This document shows positions 33,674 to 41,589 of a stretch of 48,432 nt of DNA, one piece after another. Origin of the DNA: Coriobacteriia bacterium (GTDB taxonomy: Bacteria > Actinomycetota > Coriobacteriia > Anaerosomatales > PALSA-660); NCBI GenBank assembly GCA_025361505.1, contig JANYKZ010000073.1:1-48432 (forward strand), read 5' to 3'. A program made the translations under genes and the position numbers. A model generated the notes under the pieces. That model saw only the letters and a list, made by a program, of their open reading frames with translations, did not search any database and had not been told where the DNA came from. The first letter of the stretch is position 1, and each line of letters starts with the position of its first letter.

Positions 33674-34927
33674 TCAGCGCGATGAGGCCCCGGCTTCGCT
33701 GTCGAGGCGGTGGGCGGCTTCGACGACGGCCTTTCGCAGCGCGGAGACGGCCACAGGATCCGCCCCGAGGGGCGGGACCACGGCGACGCGCACGTTCGAC
33801 TCGACGAGCGCGCGCTCGACGGCGAGCGGCAGGTCCACCGCCGTGGTGAGGTCGGGATAGAGCAGGTCCACCGGCAGGAGCGCGATGTGCTGAGCGCCGA
33901 GCGCCGCCAGGTGGCGCACCGCTTCGGGCACGTCCGGCTCCTCCCATTCCAGCCACGCTTGGCGGACCCGCTCGACCGGCAGCCCCGCTTCGATCAGCTC
34001 GGCGCGGATGCGCTGCGCCAGGTACGTCGTCTGCTCCATTGCGTCGGGGAACATGCGGTCGAACTGCCACGGGTTGCCCCGCGAGATGAGCACGACGCCG
34101 TCGGTGATCCCGTCGTCCCCGAACGCTTCGAGCGCGCGCAGCGCCGCCCTCACCGCAACGGGATGGGACGCCCACAGGGGTTCGGTGTACTCGACGGTAA
34201 GGTCCGACCCCGAAGGATCGAGTGCGTGCACCTCAGCTGCCGCCGCGTCGAAAGGTTGGGTCTGCGCGACGGTGAGCCGGGCGACGACGATGCGGCGGCC
34301 TGTGCGCGACGCCGCGCGGGCGACCGCCTCGGCGGCGGAAGGGCCCCCCTCACAGAAGCCGACCTCGACCGGACCGGCGTAGCCGTCCTCCGTCAGCCGC
34401 GTTGACAGCGCGGCGGCGATCTCACGCACGGCGCCACGGGCGGGACTCGTGCCCGCCGCCCGGTAGCGCGCCCGCTCCGAGCCGTAGACGAAGGGGCGAG
34501 CGGCGAACGGGGGAAGGGGCACCTCGCCGCGCTCGTAGGACTCGAGCTCGCGTGTGACGTCCCGCGCTCGGTAGTCGTCCATCGGAGCGTCGGCCAGCAG
34601 GACGACGCCGATCTCCGAGCCCGGGGCGACCGTGCCCAGCGTGACGCGCTCGGAACGCGGTCGCGTCAGGGAGGGGAGCAGCGCCGACGCGAGGCCGTAG
34701 CCTCCGGCGAGCGCGCCAAGCGAGATGAACACCGAGGCGATCAGGGTGTCGGGGCGTCCGGTCAGCTTGAACACGACAGCCACCGCCAGCGCGAGCAGCA
34801 CCGCGGCGACCGTCCCCGCGATGCCCACCACCGCGAGGAAGCGCCGGCGCACGACGAATGCGGCGCACGTCGTCGCTCCGGCCATGGTGCCGGCGAGCAG
34901 TGCCAAGGCCCAGGGGAGGAACCTCAT
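33674..34927 (-). CDS. Membrane-anchored ferrochelatase-like protein
   Basis: A 417-residue protein. The first 90 residues hold three hydrophobic segments (LPWALALLAGTMAGATTCAAF, FLAVVGIAGTVAAVLLALAVAVVF, LIASVFISLGALAGGYGLASALL). From about residue 100 the pattern is that of the ferrochelatase (HemH) fold: IGVVLLADAPMD at the start, DGYAGPVEVGFCEGGPSAAEAV, a middle strand VVLISRGNPWQF, and QHIALLPVDLLYPDLTTAVDLP near the end. In HemH the matching middle strand carries the catalytic His (SAHGLP-like); here it reads SRGNP, so iron insertion by the normal mechanism is doubtful. It may be a structural or transport relative or a chelatase with other ligands. Confidence 0.7.
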   Translation of the reverse strand: MRFLPWALALLAGTMAGATTCAAFVVRRRFLAVVGIAGTVAAVLLALAVAVVFKLTGRPDTLIASVFISLGALAGGYGLASALLPSLTRPRSERVTLGTVAPGSEIGVVLLADAPMDDYRARDVTRELESYERGEVPLPPFAARPFVYGSERARYRAAGTSPARGAVREIAAALSTRLTEDGYAGPVEVGFCEGGPSAAEAVARAASRTGRRIVVARLTVAQTQPFDAAAAEVHALDPSGSDLTVEYTEPLWASHPVAVRAALRALEAFGDDGITDGVVLISRGNPWQFDRMFPDAMEQTTYLAQRIRAELIEAGLPVERVRQAWLEWEEPDVPEAVRHLAALGAQHIALLPVDLLYPDLTTAVDLPLAVERALVESNVRVAVVPPLGADPVAVSALRKAVVEAAHRLDSEAGASSR

Positions 34928-34979
34928 GAGTCCTCCCGAGGGTCGGCGCTGCAGGACGCGAGATGCGGTCGCACCGGTC

Positions 34980-35318
34980 TCAGTCGGAGTCGGAGTCGGA
35001 CGCGGGCCAGGACTCCGGAAGGTTCACGTAGCGCAGGAGCACGGAGAGCGCCTGGTCGACGATCTCGTCCTTCGTCGACGCCTCGCTGTCGCTGAGACAC
35101 GACTTCATCGAGTGGCCGACGATCATGAGGCTCACCTGATTGAGGGCGGACTTGGCGGCCATGACCTGCGTGAGGACGGCGTCGCAGTCCTTGCCGGCCT
35201 CGACCATCGTCTGAAGGCCGCGGATCTGGCCTTCGAGTCTCTTGAGCCTGTTGAGTATGCGGCGGCGCTCCTCGTCGGTAGCGACGAGCGGCATCTTCGT
35301 GGAGACGTCTCGTGTCAT
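34980..35318 (-). CDS. CsoR/CstR-family (DUF156) transcriptional repressor
   Basis: A 112-residue all-helical repressor with the family core RRRILNRLKRLEGQIRGLQTMVEAGKDCDAVLTQ. Two conserved cysteines are present (GKDC and KSC). Aligned with Mycobacterium CsoR, the position of the copper-ligand His61 is Ser; the only His is one residue earlier (VGHSMKSC). The site is thus Cys-Ser-Cys-like, closer to persulfide-sensing CstR than to Cu(I)-sensing CsoR. The tail ends in an unusual SDSDSD run. The ATG at 35318 has GGAGG upstream. Its own promoter overlaps the palindrome at 35370-35388, so autoregulation is likely. Confidence 0.88.
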   Translation of the reverse strand: MTRDVSTKMPLVATDEERRRILNRLKRLEGQIRGLQTMVEAGKDCDAVLTQVMAAKSALNQVSLMIVGHSMKSCLSDSEASTKDEIVDQALSVLLRYVNLPESWPASDSDSD

Positions 35319-35369
35319 TGCAGCCCTCCGTGACGGACGGTAGAGTGGGTCCCTGCGGCGCAGCAGGAT

Positions 35370-35388
35370 TATACCCCTAGGGGGTATA
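35370..35388. promoter_or_regulatory. CsoR-type operator overlapping the repressor promoter
   Basis: TATACCCC-TAG-GGGGTATA is a perfect 8-bp dyad with a 3-base spacer, the classic G-tract operator of CsoR/CstR proteins. On the minus strand a TATAAT hexamer (35368-35373) overlaps its edge and would start transcription of the repressor about 43 bases before its ATG. The site also lies 80 bases upstream of the divergent EamA gene, with TATAGC at 35385-35390 as a weak plus-strand -10, so both genes may be controlled. Confidence 0.88.
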
Positions 35389-35467
35389 GCACGCGCCTCG
35401 GCCGTCTCCATCGCGCGCGTGACCGACAGGGAGCACGAGTGTCGATTCGCACAGAAGCACCGCGCGC

Positions 35468-36436
35468 GTGACCGCGGCCGCAGTGTCCTCTCCGCGCCCT
35501 CTGCGCGGCTACCTCCTGGCCGCGCTCGCGGCGGCCGGCTGGGCCGCCGGCGGGCTGACGGCCAAGCTGCTCTTCGTGAGCTCCGACAGCATCGACCCGG
35601 CGACCCTGTCGGCCGCGCGCGCTTTGCTGTCGACGGTCATGTTGCTGGTCTTCCTCGGGCTGTTCCGGAGGCGCGAGCTCGCCGTGCGGCCGCGTGACCT
35701 GCCGTTTCTCGCGGTGTTCGGCGTCGCGGGCCTCGCGCTGGTGCACTTCACCTACTTCATGACGATCCAGCGGACCAACGTTCCTACGGCCATCCTGCTC
35801 GAGTACCTCGCGCCGATCCTCGTGCTCGGTGTGTCGGTCGCCTTCCTGGGCGAGCGGATGACGTGGGCGCTGCCTGTCGGGGTGATCGCATCCGTGACCG
35901 GCTGCGCGCTCATGGTCGGGGCCATCGGCGGCGAGGGCCTCCGGGTGTCTCCATCGGGCATCGCGTGGGGGCTGTCGTCGGCCGTGTTCTTCGCGCTCTA
36001 CACCGTGCTCGGTAAGTACGCCGCGCCGCGCTTCTCCCCGTGGACACTGCTCACCTACGGGCTCGGGGCGGCGACGCTGTTCTGGTTGGTGTACCTGGGC
36101 GGCCCCGGCCCCATCCTGCGCCTTCTCTCCGACGGCCGGACCTTCCTCGCGGTAGCGACGATGGCGCTGGTGAGCACGATCGTCCCGTTCGGGGCGTTCC
36201 TGGCGGCCTTGCACCACATCGACGCGACCAAGGCGAGCATCACCGCCACACTCGAACCCGTGCTCGCGGGCATCGCGACGTACTTCATCGCCCGTCTCTA
36301 CGCGCCGCTCTCCGCGCTGCAGCTGCTCGGAGGGGCGTTCGTCATCGCCGCCGTCGTCGTGGCCCAGTGGCCGCACCTGATGGCCGCGCGCGCCGGCAGG
36401 GACGTCTCGGCTCCGGAGCTTCCTCCCCCGGCGTAG
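35468..36436 (+). CDS. EamA/DMT-family transporter
   Basis: A 322-residue protein with about ten membrane segments in two EamA halves. It begins with a Pro/Arg N-terminus then YLLAALAAAGWAAGGLTAKLLF, and the second half begins SPSGIAWGLSSAVFFALYTVLGKYAA. Conserved EamA marks include PTAILLEYLAPILVLGVSVAFLGERMTW and ASITATLEPVLAGIATYFIARLYAPLSALQLLGGAFVIAAVV. Such transporters export amino acids, metabolites or drugs. The substrate is unknown; control by the adjacent operator would point to a sulfur or metal-linked solute. GTG 35468 is the first plausible start. Confidence 0.88.
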   Translation: MTAAAVSSPRPLRGYLLAALAAAGWAAGGLTAKLLFVSSDSIDPATLSAARALLSTVMLLVFLGLFRRRELAVRPRDLPFLAVFGVAGLALVHFTYFMTIQRTNVPTAILLEYLAPILVLGVSVAFLGERMTWALPVGVIASVTGCALMVGAIGGEGLRVSPSGIAWGLSSAVFFALYTVLGKYAAPRFSPWTLLTYGLGAATLFWLVYLGGPGPILRLLSDGRTFLAVATMALVSTIVPFGAFLAALHHIDATKASITATLEPVLAGIATYFIARLYAPLSALQLLGGAFVIAAVVVAQWPHLMAARAGRDVSAPELPPPA

Positions 36437-36471: not shown

Positions 36472-36477
36472 GATAAT
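36472..36477 (+). promoter_or_regulatory. Possible -10 element for the rpoN operon
   Basis: GATAAT lies 55 bases before the rpoN ATG in the 96-base gap after the EamA gene. It differs from TATAAT at one base. No good -35 hexamer sits 16-18 bases upstream, so this is only a candidate housekeeping promoter. Confidence 0.3.
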
Positions 36478-36532
36478 GGCCGTGCCGCGCGCTCGGGACC
36501 GACGGGCCCGACGCCATGGCGACAGGAGTCTC

Positions 36533-37927
36533 ATGGACCTCCATCAGCGCCCCGAACTCAAACAGAAGATCACACTCTCGCCTCAGGTCTATCAGGGGCT
36601 GAGCATCCTCGCCATGCCCGTCACGGAGTTGCAGGCCCTCGTCGAGACCGAGCTTCTCGAGAACCCCGTGCTCGAGGTGGAGGAGTTCGAGGACAGCGTC
36701 GACGAGGCCGAGGAGGAGCGCTCCGACCCGGAGGACGACGACCGGTCGTGGGATGAGTGGCTCGACCGCTACGAGGAGCTCGCGTCCACGGAGCCGGTCG
36801 TCCCGCGCGACCCGGACATGGAGGCCTCCGACACCGAGGAGTACGTGGGTTCGGTCCAGTCGTTCGGTGACTACCTCGAGCAGCAACTCGCCATGATGAA
36901 CCTCACGGTCGACGAAGCGCGGGCCGCGCGCGCCGTCGTCGGCTCGCTGGACGACGACGGCTTCTTCTGCGCCAAGCTGGAGGAGATCGCGCAGGTCGCC
37001 GGCGTCACGCTCGAGGTCGCTCAGCGCGCTCTCGAGGTCGTCCAGCAACTCGACCCTCCCGGCGTCGGCGCCCGCACGCTCGCCGAGGCCCTGCGGATCC
37101 AGCTCGAGTACCTGGGGATCGACGAGCCGCTCCTTGTCAAGATCGCTGAGTCGCACCTCGACGACGTTGCCGGTAGTCACCTGCGCAAGATCGCGCGCTC
37201 GCTGCGCGTCAACGAGGACGAGGTGCGCCGCCTGGTCGACATATTGCGTTTGCTGAACCCGCGTCCGGCGGGTGCCTTCTCGCCCGGTCCGTCGCCGGGC
37301 TACATCGTGCCGGACGTCACCCTTCGTCGTTTCGACGACGGGTGGACGGTCACGTCGAACTCGGACGCCGTGCCGACTCTCAGGGTGAGCACGAGGTACC
37401 GCTCGATGCTGCGCGAGGGCTCGGGCGCCGACTCCGACACGGTGCGCTACCTCAAGGACCACATCCGATCGGCGGAGGCGTTCATCCGCAACGTCGACCG
37501 TCGCAAGGACACGGTGAGCCGTATCGCCGAGATCGTTCTCGAGGTCCAGCGGGACTTCTTCGAGGACGGCAAGGGCCCGCTTCGTCCTCTTCGGCTCGAG
37601 GACGTCGCCATCGAGATCGGGGTCCACCTGTCGACCGTGAGTCGCGGCGTGACCGGCAAGTACATGGCCACTCCGTACGGGATGTTCGAGCTCAAGCACT
37701 TCTTCTCGGGCGGCTATCGCACCGCGTCCGGCATGGATGTCGCGGCGACCAGCGTCAAACAGCGCCTGCGGGAGCTCCTGGAGGCGGAGGAGCCGACGCG
37801 TCCGCTCTCCGACCAGCGCCTGGCCGACCTGCTCAGTGACGAGGGCATCCCCGTGGCGCGGCGCACCGTCGCCAAGTACCGCGAGGAGCTCGGGATCGAG
37901 CCCTCGTGGGCACGGAAGCGGCGCTAG
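36533..37927 (+). CDS. rpoN: RNA polymerase sigma-54 factor
   Basis: A 464-residue sigma-54. Region I at the N-terminus is LHQRPELKQKITLSPQVYQGLSILAMPVTELQALVETELLENPVLE. An acidic region II follows (about residues 50-90), then the core-binding region (VVGSLDDDGFFCAKLEEIA, VQQLDPPGVGARTLAEAL), the HTH (DVAIEIGVHLSTVSRGVTGKYM), and the RpoN box ARRTVAKYREELGI near the end, which reads the -24 element. It directs core polymerase to -24/-12 promoters and needs an AAA+ activator. ATG 36533 is preceded by ACAGGAG. The sensor kinase starts on the next base after its stop. Confidence 0.97.
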   Translation: MDLHQRPELKQKITLSPQVYQGLSILAMPVTELQALVETELLENPVLEVEEFEDSVDEAEEERSDPEDDDRSWDEWLDRYEELASTEPVVPRDPDMEASDTEEYVGSVQSFGDYLEQQLAMMNLTVDEARAARAVVGSLDDDGFFCAKLEEIAQVAGVTLEVAQRALEVVQQLDPPGVGARTLAEALRIQLEYLGIDEPLLVKIAESHLDDVAGSHLRKIARSLRVNEDEVRRLVDILRLLNPRPAGAFSPGPSPGYIVPDVTLRRFDDGWTVTSNSDAVPTLRVSTRYRSMLREGSGADSDTVRYLKDHIRSAEAFIRNVDRRKDTVSRIAEIVLEVQRDFFEDGKGPLRPLRLEDVAIEIGVHLSTVSRGVTGKYMATPYGMFELKHFFSGGYRTASGMDVAATSVKQRLRELLEAEEPTRPLSDQRLADLLSDEGIPVARRTVAKYREELGIEPSWARKRR

Positions 37928-39451
37928 ATGGCGGACGAGACTCCGGAAACGGTACCGTCCGTCCCCGCGACGGGGGTCGACCCCGAACGGCGGGCCGACG
38001 CCCGGCGCAGGATGCGGGACGTCCTCACGATCGGCGCCATGCTGGTCGCGATCACGATCCTGCACACGTTCGCCGGAGGCGGCCAGGACGTCCAGTTCCA
38101 CGAGTTCTACCGTCGCCTCTACTACCTGCCGATCCTCTACGCCGCATTCGTGTTCGGCATGCGCGGCGGCGTCCTCGCCGCGATCGCCTCCGCGATCCTC
38201 TACGCGCCGTGGGGCGAGACCGCGGGCGTGCAGCCGCTGCTGGGACTCGCCGCCGGGGACGGCCTCGAAATCGTGATGTACCTCGTGATGGGGGCGCTCT
38301 TCGGCCGCCTCAGGGACCTGGAGGAGCGCAAGACGCGCGACCTGAGGCAGGTCTCGGCGAAGCTCGAGGAGGCCTACCGCGCTCTCGAGGAGCGCGCCAT
38401 GCAGCTCCTCGCGATACAGGACTACACGCAGTCGATCCTGCGCTCGGTGACATCGGGAGTGGTGACGGTCGGCCCCGACGCGTCGGTCGCGACCGTCAAC
38501 CCGGCCGCGGAGCGCATTCTGGGTATCGCCGAGGACGTGGTTACGGCGCGCGCGCTTCCGACGCTGTTCCGCGACGACGGCGGGCTCACCACCGACGTTC
38601 GCAAGGTGCTCGAGGGCCGGATCCCGCGCACGATGCGCGACCTGCGGCTCGTGACCATCGACGGCAAGGTGGTGCACGCCCAGGTGTCGGTCTCGCGCAT
38701 GCGCGACATCGGCGGACGCAAGCTGGGCGCCGTCGTCACCGTCGAGGACGTCTCCGACATCAAGGCGCTCACCGAGCAGCTGATCCGCGCCGATCGGCTC
38801 GCGGCGATGGGAGAGCTGACCGCCGGCGTGGCGCACGAGGTCCGCAACCCCTTGGGCATCATCCGCGCCTCGGTCCAACTCATGGAGGACGCCGAGTGCA
38901 GTCGCGAGCGCGTGAGCGAGGCCGCGGAGGTCATCAAGCAGGAGATCGACCGGCTCGACCGGGTCATCAAGGCGCTGCTCGACTTCGGGCGGCCAGCGCC
39001 GCCGACCATGCGCCCCGTCGCGGTCGCTCAGGTGCTCGAGGACGTCGCCCTGTTCTCGCGGACCTTTGCCAGCCGCGCGCACGTGACGATCGTCGAGGAG
39101 TACTCGGACACGGCCCCCGACGTGGTGGCCGATCCGGAGCAGCTGAAGCAGGTGTTCGTGAACCTCATCAGCAACGCGGTGCAGGCGATGCCGCTGGGGG
39201 GTACCCTGACCATCACGACCGGCGCGGAAGAGGGATTCGTCTTCGTCCGGTTCAAGGACACGGGCCCGGGCATCTCGGCCGAGGTGCGCGAGAAGATCTT
39301 CGACCCGTTCGTCTCCACGCGTGACGACGGGACCGGTCTCGGGCTGACGATCGTCCACCGCATCGTCGACGAGCATGACGGGCACATAGAGGTAGCGAGC
39401 GAACCGGGCGCCGGGACCACATTCACGGTCTGGCTGCCCGCACTCCAGTAG
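37928..39451 (+). CDS. Membrane PAS-domain sensor histidine kinase (NtrB/AtoS-like)
   Basis: A 507-residue kinase. An N-terminal membrane region (about residues 32-125) has three or four hydrophobic segments. A short coiled stretch (EERKTRDLRQVSAKLEEAYRALEERA) leads to a PAS domain (about 165-280). HisKA carries GELTAGVAHEVRNPLG with phospho-acceptor His303. The HATPase domain has N, G1 and G2 boxes (NLISNAVQAM, DTGPGISAEV, GTGLGLTIVHRI). It presumably phosphorylates the NtrC-type regulator encoded 25 bases downstream. The membrane part lacks a large extracytoplasmic loop, so the signal may be within the membrane or cytoplasmic via PAS. Confidence 0.93.
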   Translation: MADETPETVPSVPATGVDPERRADARRRMRDVLTIGAMLVAITILHTFAGGGQDVQFHEFYRRLYYLPILYAAFVFGMRGGVLAAIASAILYAPWGETAGVQPLLGLAAGDGLEIVMYLVMGALFGRLRDLEERKTRDLRQVSAKLEEAYRALEERAMQLLAIQDYTQSILRSVTSGVVTVGPDASVATVNPAAERILGIAEDVVTARALPTLFRDDGGLTTDVRKVLEGRIPRTMRDLRLVTIDGKVVHAQVSVSRMRDIGGRKLGAVVTVEDVSDIKALTEQLIRADRLAAMGELTAGVAHEVRNPLGIIRASVQLMEDAECSRERVSEAAEVIKQEIDRLDRVIKALLDFGRPAPPTMRPVAVAQVLEDVALFSRTFASRAHVTIVEEYSDTAPDVVADPEQLKQVFVNLISNAVQAMPLGGTLTITTGAEEGFVFVRFKDTGPGISAEVREKIFDPFVSTRDDGTGLGLTIVHRIVDEHDGHIEVASEPGAGTTFTVWLPALQ

Positions 39452-39476
39452 CGCACGGGAAGGGGTCGACCACCGC

Positions 39477-40829
39477 ATGGCCAAGCGAGTCCTGATCGCC
39501 GACGACGAGAAGAACATGCGATGGGTGCTCTCCGAGGCGCTCGCGGCGGAGGGCTACGAGGTCATCCAGGCCGCGGACGGCAAGGAGGCTCTTACCGCCG
39601 TCGAGGAGCAGCACCCGGATCTGCTCGTACTCGACCACAAGATGCCTTCACCCGACGGCATGGAGGTCCTGCGCAAGATCCGGGCGAACGGCGAGGACCT
39701 TCCCGTCATCATGCTGACGGCCCACGGCAACGTGGCCACGGCGGTCGAGGCGATGAAGGCGGGGGCGACCGAGTACCTCACCAAGCCGTTCGATCTGGGC
39801 GACCTGAAGCTCTCCATCGAGAAGGCGATCCGGATCTCGGAGCTCTCCGACGAGGTCAGACGTCTGCGCGCCGAGCTCGACCGGGACTGGGACGTGGACG
39901 GCTTCATCGCGGCGGACCCACACATGGTCGAGATCCTGGTGACCGTCGAGAAGGTCGCGCCCACCAACGCGACCGTGATGATCTACGGCGAGTCCGGCAC
40001 GGGCAAGGAGCTCATAGCGCGCGCCATCCACCGGCTGTCGCCGCGCGACAACAAGCCGTTCGTCGAGGTGCATGCCGGCGCGCTGCCCGAGACCCTTCTG
40101 GAGAGTGAGCTCTTCGGCTACGAGAAGGGCGCCTTCACGGGAGCCGTGACCGCCAAGCCGGGCCGCTTCGAGCTCGCCAACGGCGGAACGCTCTTCCTCG
40201 ACGAGGTCGGCGACATCTCGCTCGGCGTCCAGGTGAAGCTGCTGCGCGTCCTGCAGGAGCGCCGGTTCGAGCGCCTGGGAGGCACCCGCTCGATCGACGT
40301 GGACGTTCGCGTCGTGGCGGCCACCAACCGCGACCTGCAGCAGCTGATCGCGGACGGCTCCTTCCGGGAGGACCTCTTCTACCGGTTGAACGTCGTGCCG
40401 ATCACCCTCCCGCCGCTGCGCCAGCGCAAGGGCGACATCCCGCGTCTCGTGGCGCACTTCCTCGACAAGTACGAGGCGGGCGGCCGGACGATCAACAACG
40501 AAGCGATGCAGGCCCTGACGGGCTACCCGTGGCCGGGCAACATCCGTGAACTCGAGAACACCATCGAGCGCGTCGTCATCCTCGCTTCGGCGCCCGAGAT
40601 CGGCCTGGAGGACCTGCCGTCCGAGGTCCGGGCGGGCATCGCCCCCTCGGCGAGCCGGACCCACACGTTCGAGCTGCCAGAAGAGGGTCTCGACCTCGAA
40701 GAGGTGGAGATGGACCTGCTGAGGCAGGCCATGGACCGGGCGGGCGGCAACGCCACGAAGGCCGCGAAACTGGTCGGTCTGACGCCCAAGACCCTCGAGG
40801 CGAGGATGCACAGGTTGGGCCTGCAGTAG
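39477..40829 (+). CDS. NtrC-family sigma-54-dependent response regulator
   Basis: A 450-residue activator with three parts. The receiver domain has acidic residues DD9-10, phospho-acceptor Asp53 and Lys103 (LTKPFD). The AAA+ domain has Walker A GESGTGKE (171-178), the sigma-54-contacting GAFTGA loop (218-223) and Walker [11 protein letters not shown]. The C-terminal Fis-type helix-turn-helix reads [26 protein letters not shown]. The intact GAFTGA shows that it works with sigma-54. It is the last gene of rpoN-kinase-regulator, and a -24/-12 promoter starts 46 bases after its stop, a likely direct target. Confidence 0.96.
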
Positions 40830-41364: not shown

Positions 41365-41589
41365 ATGACGACTTCCGCAACCGCACATCTGCACACGACC
41401 GGGCTGCACTGCCAGTCGTGTTCCATGCTGGTCCAGATGGAGCTCGAGGAGCTTCCGGGTGTCGCGTCCGCCCGGTCCGACTTCCGGACCGGGATCACCG
41501 ACGTCGTCTACGATCCCGAGCAGGTCACGATCGAGTCTCTCGTCGCCGCCGTCGTCGCCGCGGGATACGGCGCCGAGCTCGCCGAGTAG
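41365..41589 (+). CDS. Heavy-metal-associated (CopZ-like) metallochaperone
   Basis: A 74-residue single HMA domain with the Cu(I)-binding motif GLHCQSC (Cys16, Cys19; His replaces the usual Met of MxCxxC). It ends in the typical LVAAVVAAGYGAEL helix-strand. It would carry Cu(I) or Zn/Hg to an ATPase or enzyme in the cytoplasm. A basic or acidic partner ATPase is not in this window. ATG 41365 follows GAGAGGGCGACGACG. Whether it shares the sigma-54 promoter upstream is unclear; the gap after the zinc-ribbon gene is 57 bases. Confidence 0.88.
   Translation: MTTSATAHLHTTGLHCQSCSMLVQMELEELPGVASARSDFRTGITDVVYDPEQVTIESLVAAVVAAGYGAELAE

Follow-up and report, generated by a model that had tools for sequence, protein, structure and literature searches.

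The closest described counterparts of the regulator considered here are the copper sensor CsoR, the DmeR regulator of rhizobia, the persulfide sensor CstR and the actinobacterial protein ScCsoR, and its family, its fold, its type of operator and the persulfide mechanism discussed below are all known from such systems. CsoR of M. tuberculosis and G. thermodenitrificans has the same fold, the equivalent cysteines (Cys36 and Cys65) and a G-tract operator, whereas its His61, the middle member of the Cys-His-Cys ligand set of Cu(I) sensors (positions X, Y and Z), is replaced by serine in our protein. In the DmeR-DmeF system, an RcnR/CsoR-family regulator is paired with the exporter DmeF, which is a CDF transporter. 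Part of the published account of DmeR places it in the RcnR/CsoR family and describes a histidine at the position of CsoR Cys65 (PMC7055735), whereas our protein has cysteine there and serine at Y and is encoded at a locus that lacks a CDF gene. CstR of Staphylococcus and Streptococcus carries two cysteines at equal spacing together with a non-histidine Y residue, and an excerpt from PMC5480029 describes a C31–C60' disulfide bridge that lowers its DNA affinity. It differs from the present regulator in having Asn rather than Ser or Ala at Y, in the genes that flank it (rhodanese, sqr, TauE) and in its placement in our tree, where the two do not group and the CstR branch is long. ScCsoR (SCO0620) of Streptomyces coelicolor is likewise an actinobacterial CsoR-like protein with a cysteine pair 29 residues apart and a similar operator core. 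According to part of its published description (PMC7533328), these residues are Cys37 and Cys66, the site reads ATACC-n6-GGTAT, and polysulfide releases the protein from DNA in a manner that requires both cysteines. Unlike the regulator described below, ScCsoR controls a persulfide dioxygenase, a rhodanese and a sulfite transporter. ScCsoR might belong to the same clade as our protein, the likeness being one of description rather than of compared sequences.

The window, as we term the entire analysed stretch of 48,432 nucleotides from a Coriobacteriia bacterium of the order Anaerosomatales (contig JANYKZ010000073.1), encodes this regulator on its minus strand as csoR (34980–35318; 112 amino acids). 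The ATG at 35316–35318 is a chosen start codon; the open frame could also begin upstream at 35411, in which case the operator would fall within the gene. A preliminary description of the locus had given the span 34980–35388, which does cover csoR, although the gene itself stops at 35318 and the remainder takes in the operator. The product scores 86.1 bits against PF02583 (cut-off 22.8) and thus belongs to the CsoR/RcnR (DUF156) family, of which it is the sole member found in its own genome. In NCBIfam its top match, to the copper sensor RicR, reaches 52 bits, far below the cut-off of 175. Among solved chains, sequence similarity is highest to InrS, to 6ahx and 4m1p, whose titles name CsoR, and to 7mq1, whose title names CstR, and in the alignments to solved chains there are no gaps between the two cysteines, Cys45 (X) and Cys74 (Z), whose spacing is 29. 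The position of CsoR His61, four residues before the second cysteine, is occupied by Ser70, and His69 stands at -5. At -4, InrS, 6ahx and G. thermodenitrificans CsoR have His, and the streptococcal CstR (7mq1) has Asn. The preliminary description had proposed exactly this, namely a serine in place of His61 with a histidine one residue off and two cysteines remaining as in CstR, and both proposals are borne out by the alignments. The protein therefore shares with CstR a cysteine pair at X and Z with a residue other than histidine at Y. It departs from the Cys-His-Cys set of the Cu(I) sensors, from the same set plus an N-terminal histidine in InrS, and from the DmeR/RcnR pattern of histidines at Y and Z plus an N-terminal histidine; residues 1–20 contain no histidine, so that the N-terminal ligand of DmeR/RcnR and InrS is absent.

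The predicted monomer adopts a three-helix fold, with helices at residues 15–41, 45–76 and 83–97 (mean pLDDT 80.2; block means of 97, 96, 90 and 76 across residues 41–80). Helix 45–76 is unbroken in this model, and nothing there suggests a bulge by which His69 could reach the ligand position. Structure comparison returned Z scores of 9.8 for FrmR, 9.5 for S. lividans CsoR, 9.2 for InrS and 8.4 for both CstR and M. tuberculosis CsoR, but adds little beyond Pfam because designed helical bundles also reach 8.8–9.0. To follow the key residues through the order, we searched 61 genomes of Anaerosomatales (the window's own and 60 relatives) and compared the 56 loci in which a match was found, the window included. 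Both X and Z are cysteine at all 55 loci where both can be read (at L086, X is lost at a contig cut). The Y residue is Ser at 48 of the 56 loci and Ala at the other 8, and the -5 residue is His at 39, Tyr at 15, Gln at 1 and Phe at 1. Since -5 varies, Y is always Ser or Ala, and the cysteine pair and the operator are conserved, it is unlikely, judging from the alignments and the predicted monomer, that the neighbouring histidine acts as a hidden copper ligand. Neither the sequences nor the model gave any indication of the adjacent histidine taking over the ligand position, an outcome that would have spoken against the preliminary description.

The operator, TATACCCCTAGGGGGTATA, occupies 35370–35388 and is a perfect 8+3+8 dyad, TATACCCC-TAG-GGGGTATA, with fully (100%) complementary arms. 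It is the only match in the window at up to three mismatches, and 100 shuffles yielded 0. On the csoR strand, a TATAAT -10 box read by eye (35368–35373, minus strand) overlaps it by 4 nt, so the G-tract dyad overlapping a TATAAT box, as originally described, is indeed present, and the dyad lies upstream of 53 of the 56 csoR orthologues. Among the three exceptions, two loci (L079 and L086) are at contig ends and one (L076) has no operator within 260 nt. The pattern ATACCC-N5-GGGTAT occurs in 52 of the 61 genomes, versus 0 of 61 for the reversed control; given these counts and the position upstream of 53 of 56 csoR genes, the operator cannot be attributed to chance. Bases specified by the search pattern are necessarily invariant. 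Those that were free in the search are also conserved over the 53 operators, namely the fourth C (52/53), its matching G (51/53) and the sixth base of TATANT on the csoR strand (50/53). On account of these free bases and the TATANT box, autoregulation of csoR is the regulatory inference with the best support. A scan for sigma-70 promoters across 34900–35520 returned 0 promoters and recognised no -35 element, and a consensus sigma-70 promoter was accordingly rejected. A wider regulon in the window's own genome was likewise rejected, as a search with the 17-bp core gave a single exact site and no further one with 1 or 2 mismatches, while the 14 other sites at 3 mismatches equal the 14 obtained with the reversed control.

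Behind the operator, the gene divergent from csoR in the window's lineage encodes an EamA-family transporter (35468–36436, plus strand; PF00892, E=9e-37), homologues of which are found at 52 of the 56 loci. On the other side, 52 nt downstream of csoR and on the same strand, is a gene for a CbiX/ferrochelatase-like protein (33674–34927, minus strand; PF01903 and PF00762), which is a neighbour at 55 of the 56 loci and is possibly co-transcribed with csoR. By eye, its product has hydrophobic stretches near the N-terminus. With EamA and the CbiX-like gene as the flanking genes, Pfam revealed no copper ATPase or chaperone directly linked to csoR in the window and no rhodanese, persulfide dioxygenase, sqr or TauE/sulfite exporter among these two neighbours; no metal exporter gene was found at the window locus either. 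Following EamA on the same strand (36476–40829) are genes that by eye resemble rpoN, a sensor kinase and an NtrC-type regulator, and these families recur at 50–51 of the 56 loci. Approximately 6 kb from csoR, at 41365–41589 on the plus strand, the window encodes a small HMA-like protein (motif TGLHCQSC), identified by the motif and by a tblastn match to the HMA gene that neighbours ccdA in relatives. In the window's own genome, this small gene is not accompanied by a copy of the operator.

The gene map of the 56 loci was built by tblastn, with rpoN and DUF302 named by eye. Across the order, the common arrangement is rpoN, EamA, CDF, operator and csoR, followed by a convergent set of DUF302-like, zinc-ribbon and TrxA genes and then the CbiX/ferrochelatase-like gene. 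The DUF302-like gene, which sits beside csoR at many loci, scores 21.7 with Pfam, under the cut-off of 23, and the TrxA gene is found on the opposite strand at 42 of the 56 loci and is absent from the window. A CDF gene lies behind the operator at 44 of the 56 loci, divergent from csoR and separated from it by 88–319 nt between aligned parts; 43 of these 44 loci have the operator. By eye the encoded CDF proteins show an HD-HD metal-site pattern, and the copy at L056 matches PF01545 with E=5e-46. EamA follows CDF at 42 of the 44 loci (exceptions L055 and L075), and because the end of CDF can be close to the start of EamA (-1036 and -1051 at L056), CDF-EamA looks, from gene positions, like an operon behind the operator. 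The preliminary description, in which the divergent gene encodes an EamA transporter and not a copper ATPase, thus applies to the window, where no copper ATPase is adjacent, but not to the order as a whole; EamA stands immediately behind the operator in the window's family and a few others. We therefore rejected the view that EamA generally comes first behind the operator, since in most Anaerosomatales CDF takes this place and EamA follows it. CDF is absent at ten loci, the six of the window's family together with L044, L050, L071 and L077, all of which keep the operator; two further CDF-less loci (L079 and L086) are cut at a contig end. To judge from this distribution, the window's family has lost CDF, which would have left EamA behind the operator. 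The CDF that the window's genome encodes elsewhere (G000:C62) is a weak match to the linked CDFs, with 26% identity.

Based upon these features, the signal is probably sulfur or redox chemistry, or else another metal, and not copper. We favor a cysteine-pair thiol/persulfide switch that would be CstR-like in mechanism, a reading to which we assign about an even chance of being correct. Under this model, a CsoR-fold repressor devoid of a copper site would sense through a cysteine pair contributed by neighbouring subunits. The reduced protein would sit on the G-tract dyad and obstruct access to the -10 box of csoR and to the promoter of the divergent exporter, which would be CDF-EamA in most of the order and EamA alone in the window. 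Under a sulfane-sulfur load, Cys45 and Cys74 would be oxidised, most likely by persulfidation or through a di/polysulfide bridge, and the resulting release from the operator would switch on both export and resynthesis of the repressor itself. As for what EamA might export, a portion of PMC9841684 describes the use of E. coli EamA as a cysteine exporter. The two cultured Anaerosomatales respire sulfur/thiosulfate or Fe(III), as stated in part of PMC9686372, and these habits make sulfane sulfur and metal stress both plausible as signals.

Additional operator copies bear upon the nature of the signal as well. Two operator sites occur in 10 of the 61 genomes. In seven genomes of one family (G042, G044, G050, G051, G054, G056 and G059), the second site lies between an HMA-domain gene and ccdA, roughly 7 kb from csoR; this placement is direct for L119 (site 3849), L124 (3878) and L126 (3074) and follows from coordinates for the other four, and the HMA and DsbD_TM assignments are confirmed by Pfam for L119 only. 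In G053 (L117, site 6355), the second operator directly precedes sufC-sufB, where SufC reaches 213.3 bits against an equivalog cut-off of 212.8 and the SufB-like product falls under its cut-off, and in G014 it precedes an SDR gene. The remaining genome, G045 (L125, site 2326), carries the operator-like ATACCCTTGCAGGGTAT between genes of the cystathionine-synthase and disulfide-reductase types, all below their cut-offs; its second-site contig may be foreign to the bin, as it has 50% G+C versus 63% for the contig with csoR. Genes for CcdA, Suf proteins and sulfur amino-acid enzymes behind second operators would suit a thiol or sulfur signal, in the few genomes that have them.

Further clues come from more distant relatives. 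A wider genome scan gave 80 loci, and in the 30 least similar of these (L177–L206), as in both phylum samples described below, neighbours were called by short motifs of our own rather than profiles. Y is not histidine in 16 of the 30, and no motif of a P-type ATPase, HMA protein or CDF lies near any of these; it is histidine in 14, six of which do have such a motif (Lachnospiraceae or Butyrivibrio records). Thioredoxin or thioredoxin-reductase motifs occur within approximately 1.7 kb at nine of the 30 loci, six with a non-histidine Y and three with histidine (L190, L191 and L195). At L177, csoR is followed by a thioredoxin reductase gene (TRX_reduct, TIGR01292, 369.7 bits, cut-off 343.45), at L187 by a thioredoxin gene, and at L180, by motif, a thioredoxin reductase lies downstream. 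On the side away from the thioredoxin reductase, at a distance of about 0.7 kb, L177 and L180 also carry an EamA gene, whose product shares 39% (276 columns) and 37% (234 columns) identity, respectively, with EamA of the window. We then took two phylum samples of 30, each consisting of the best matches by similarity rather than of a random draw. In the top PF02583 sample, all 30 proteins have histidine at Y, 15 loci have HMA or P-ATPase motifs and one (L242) has a thioredoxin-reductase motif. In the top L180-like sample (L262–L291), which includes four Anaerosomatales, 28 of 30 have a non-histidine Y and none has an HMA or P-ATPase motif. The latter sample has 26 loci from outside Anaerosomatales, and in 22 of them Y is Arg, which argues against a metal ligand at that position and would favor a thiolate mechanism in these relatives. 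None of these 26 has a thioredoxin motif within 1.5 kb or up to the contig end, and the thioredoxin link is therefore not general; it favors thiol chemistry in the sense that some relatives are linked to thioredoxin genes, although many are not.

In the tree (85 rows, 84 columns, with four characterised proteins only, as fragments), the window protein belongs to a clade of 49 rows (98/88), 44 of them without histidine at Y, the window protein being counted twice, and 5 with it; none of the four characterised proteins falls in this clade. Copper-type rows and G. thermodenitrificans CsoR form a separate clade of 32 rows (94/91). The SmCstR fragment stands outside both main clades on a branch of 2.76, and the positions of SmCstR, the Chloroflexota and other long branches are unsure. 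Besides the CDF, several observations run against the thiol reading, namely that the window protein does not join CstR in the tree, that the thioredoxin link is not general and a thioredoxin-reductase motif also occurs at the copper-type locus L242, that histidine is present at Y in three of the nine thioredoxin-linked proteins and in 5 of the 49 rows of the clade, that neither gene flanking csoR in the window encodes a rhodanese, persulfide dioxygenase or sqr product, and that the best NCBIfam match, under its cut-off, is a copper sensor.

The most serious rival is a metal signal, because the CDF found behind the operator at 44 of 56 loci is the usual partner of a metal sensor. In this scenario, Cys45 and Cys74' plus an acid, backbone or other donors would hold a divalent metal, the substrate of the linked CDF, following the logic of DmeR-DmeF, and the window's family would have lost CDF and kept its regulator on EamA. 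DmeR-DmeF shows that the fold can be paired with a CDF for cobalt and nickel, and CDF is therefore the strongest argument for reading the system in terms of metal. Two residues are consistent with it. Firstly, Glu85, which would sit near CsoR Glu81, is nearly invariant among 20 aligned orthologues. Secondly, a C-terminal cysteine tracks CDF, as it is present at 44 of 44 loci with CDF and at 4 of 10 without it. However, losses of this cysteine are confined to two lineages (it is lost at five of the six loci of the window's family), and the same residue is present in L177 and L180, two relatives from outside the order whose neighbourhoods yielded no CDF motif. Moreover, Y is Ser or Ala in the order and often Arg outside it, no CDF, HMA or P-type ATPase motif accompanies the 16 outside loci with a non-histidine Y, and the operator is kept at all ten CDF-less loci. 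We therefore regard a metal sensor with an altered site as a tentative alternative, clearly less probable than the thiol/persulfide switch. The remainder is shared among a relic autoregulator, copper and another electrophile.

As a relic after the loss of CDF, the regulator of the window's family would mainly control itself and the csoR-cbiX transcript, with EamA as an incidental neighbour. The single operator in the window's own genome assembly, the absence of CDF from all six loci of the family and the loss of the C-terminal cysteine from five of them would all fit such a history, but the operator, both cysteines and the adjacency to EamA are kept at all six. Because EamA follows CDF at 42 of 44 CDF-bearing loci, it was probably a target before CDF was lost, and we consider the relic scenario improbable. 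Least probable of all is an ordinary Cu(I)-sensing CsoR with His69 in place of His61, a reading for which the fold, the operator type, the two cysteines and the sub-threshold RicR match of our protein would speak, but which is disfavoured by the register of His69 in an unbroken predicted helix, by Tyr, Gln or Phe at that position at 17 of 56 loci, by the neighbourhood without a copper ATPase, by the contrast between the top PF02583 sample (histidine at Y in 30/30, HMA/P-ATPase in 15/30) and the relatives' sample (2/30 and 0/30), and by the separation from the copper-type clade in the tree.

Among the open-access papers listed, no title or beginning of an abstract reported this regulator or a CsoR-EamA pair. 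As far as the literature was searched, three aspects are new: there is a clade most of whose members carry Ser, Ala or Arg where Y would otherwise be histidine; across the order it is paired with CDF-EamA; and at loci that lack CDF the switch still stands before EamA. If the cysteine pair of the preferred thiol/persulfide switch reads sulfane sulfur or redox state, this would be a branch of CsoR whose output is export by CDF and EamA instead of the oxidation of sulfur. The order that harbors it comprises anaerobes that reduce sulfur and iron, few of which have been cultured. If, on the other hand, a metal is read, the CsoR fold would harbor a metal site without the histidine common to copper, nickel and cobalt sensors. 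It is conceivable, although we hold it to be rather doubtful, that in Anaerosomatales a sulfur-redox signal, and not the metal itself, opens both a CDF metal exporter and an EamA exporter from a single operator, by means of a clade undescribed as far as searched that mostly lacks the Y histidine and spans Anaerosomatales, Thermoleophilia-type actinobacteria and Chloroflexota. The conserved operator and gene order also supply natural variants, which differ in the presence of CDF or of the C-terminal cysteine or are tandem doubles. The last are double-CsoR proteins encoded in one reading frame at L078 (7731–8333), L084 (7815–8405), L085 (7264–7839) and L181 (7947–8558). Their second halves have diverged but retain both cysteines, and such proteins could possibly act as built-in asymmetric dimers.
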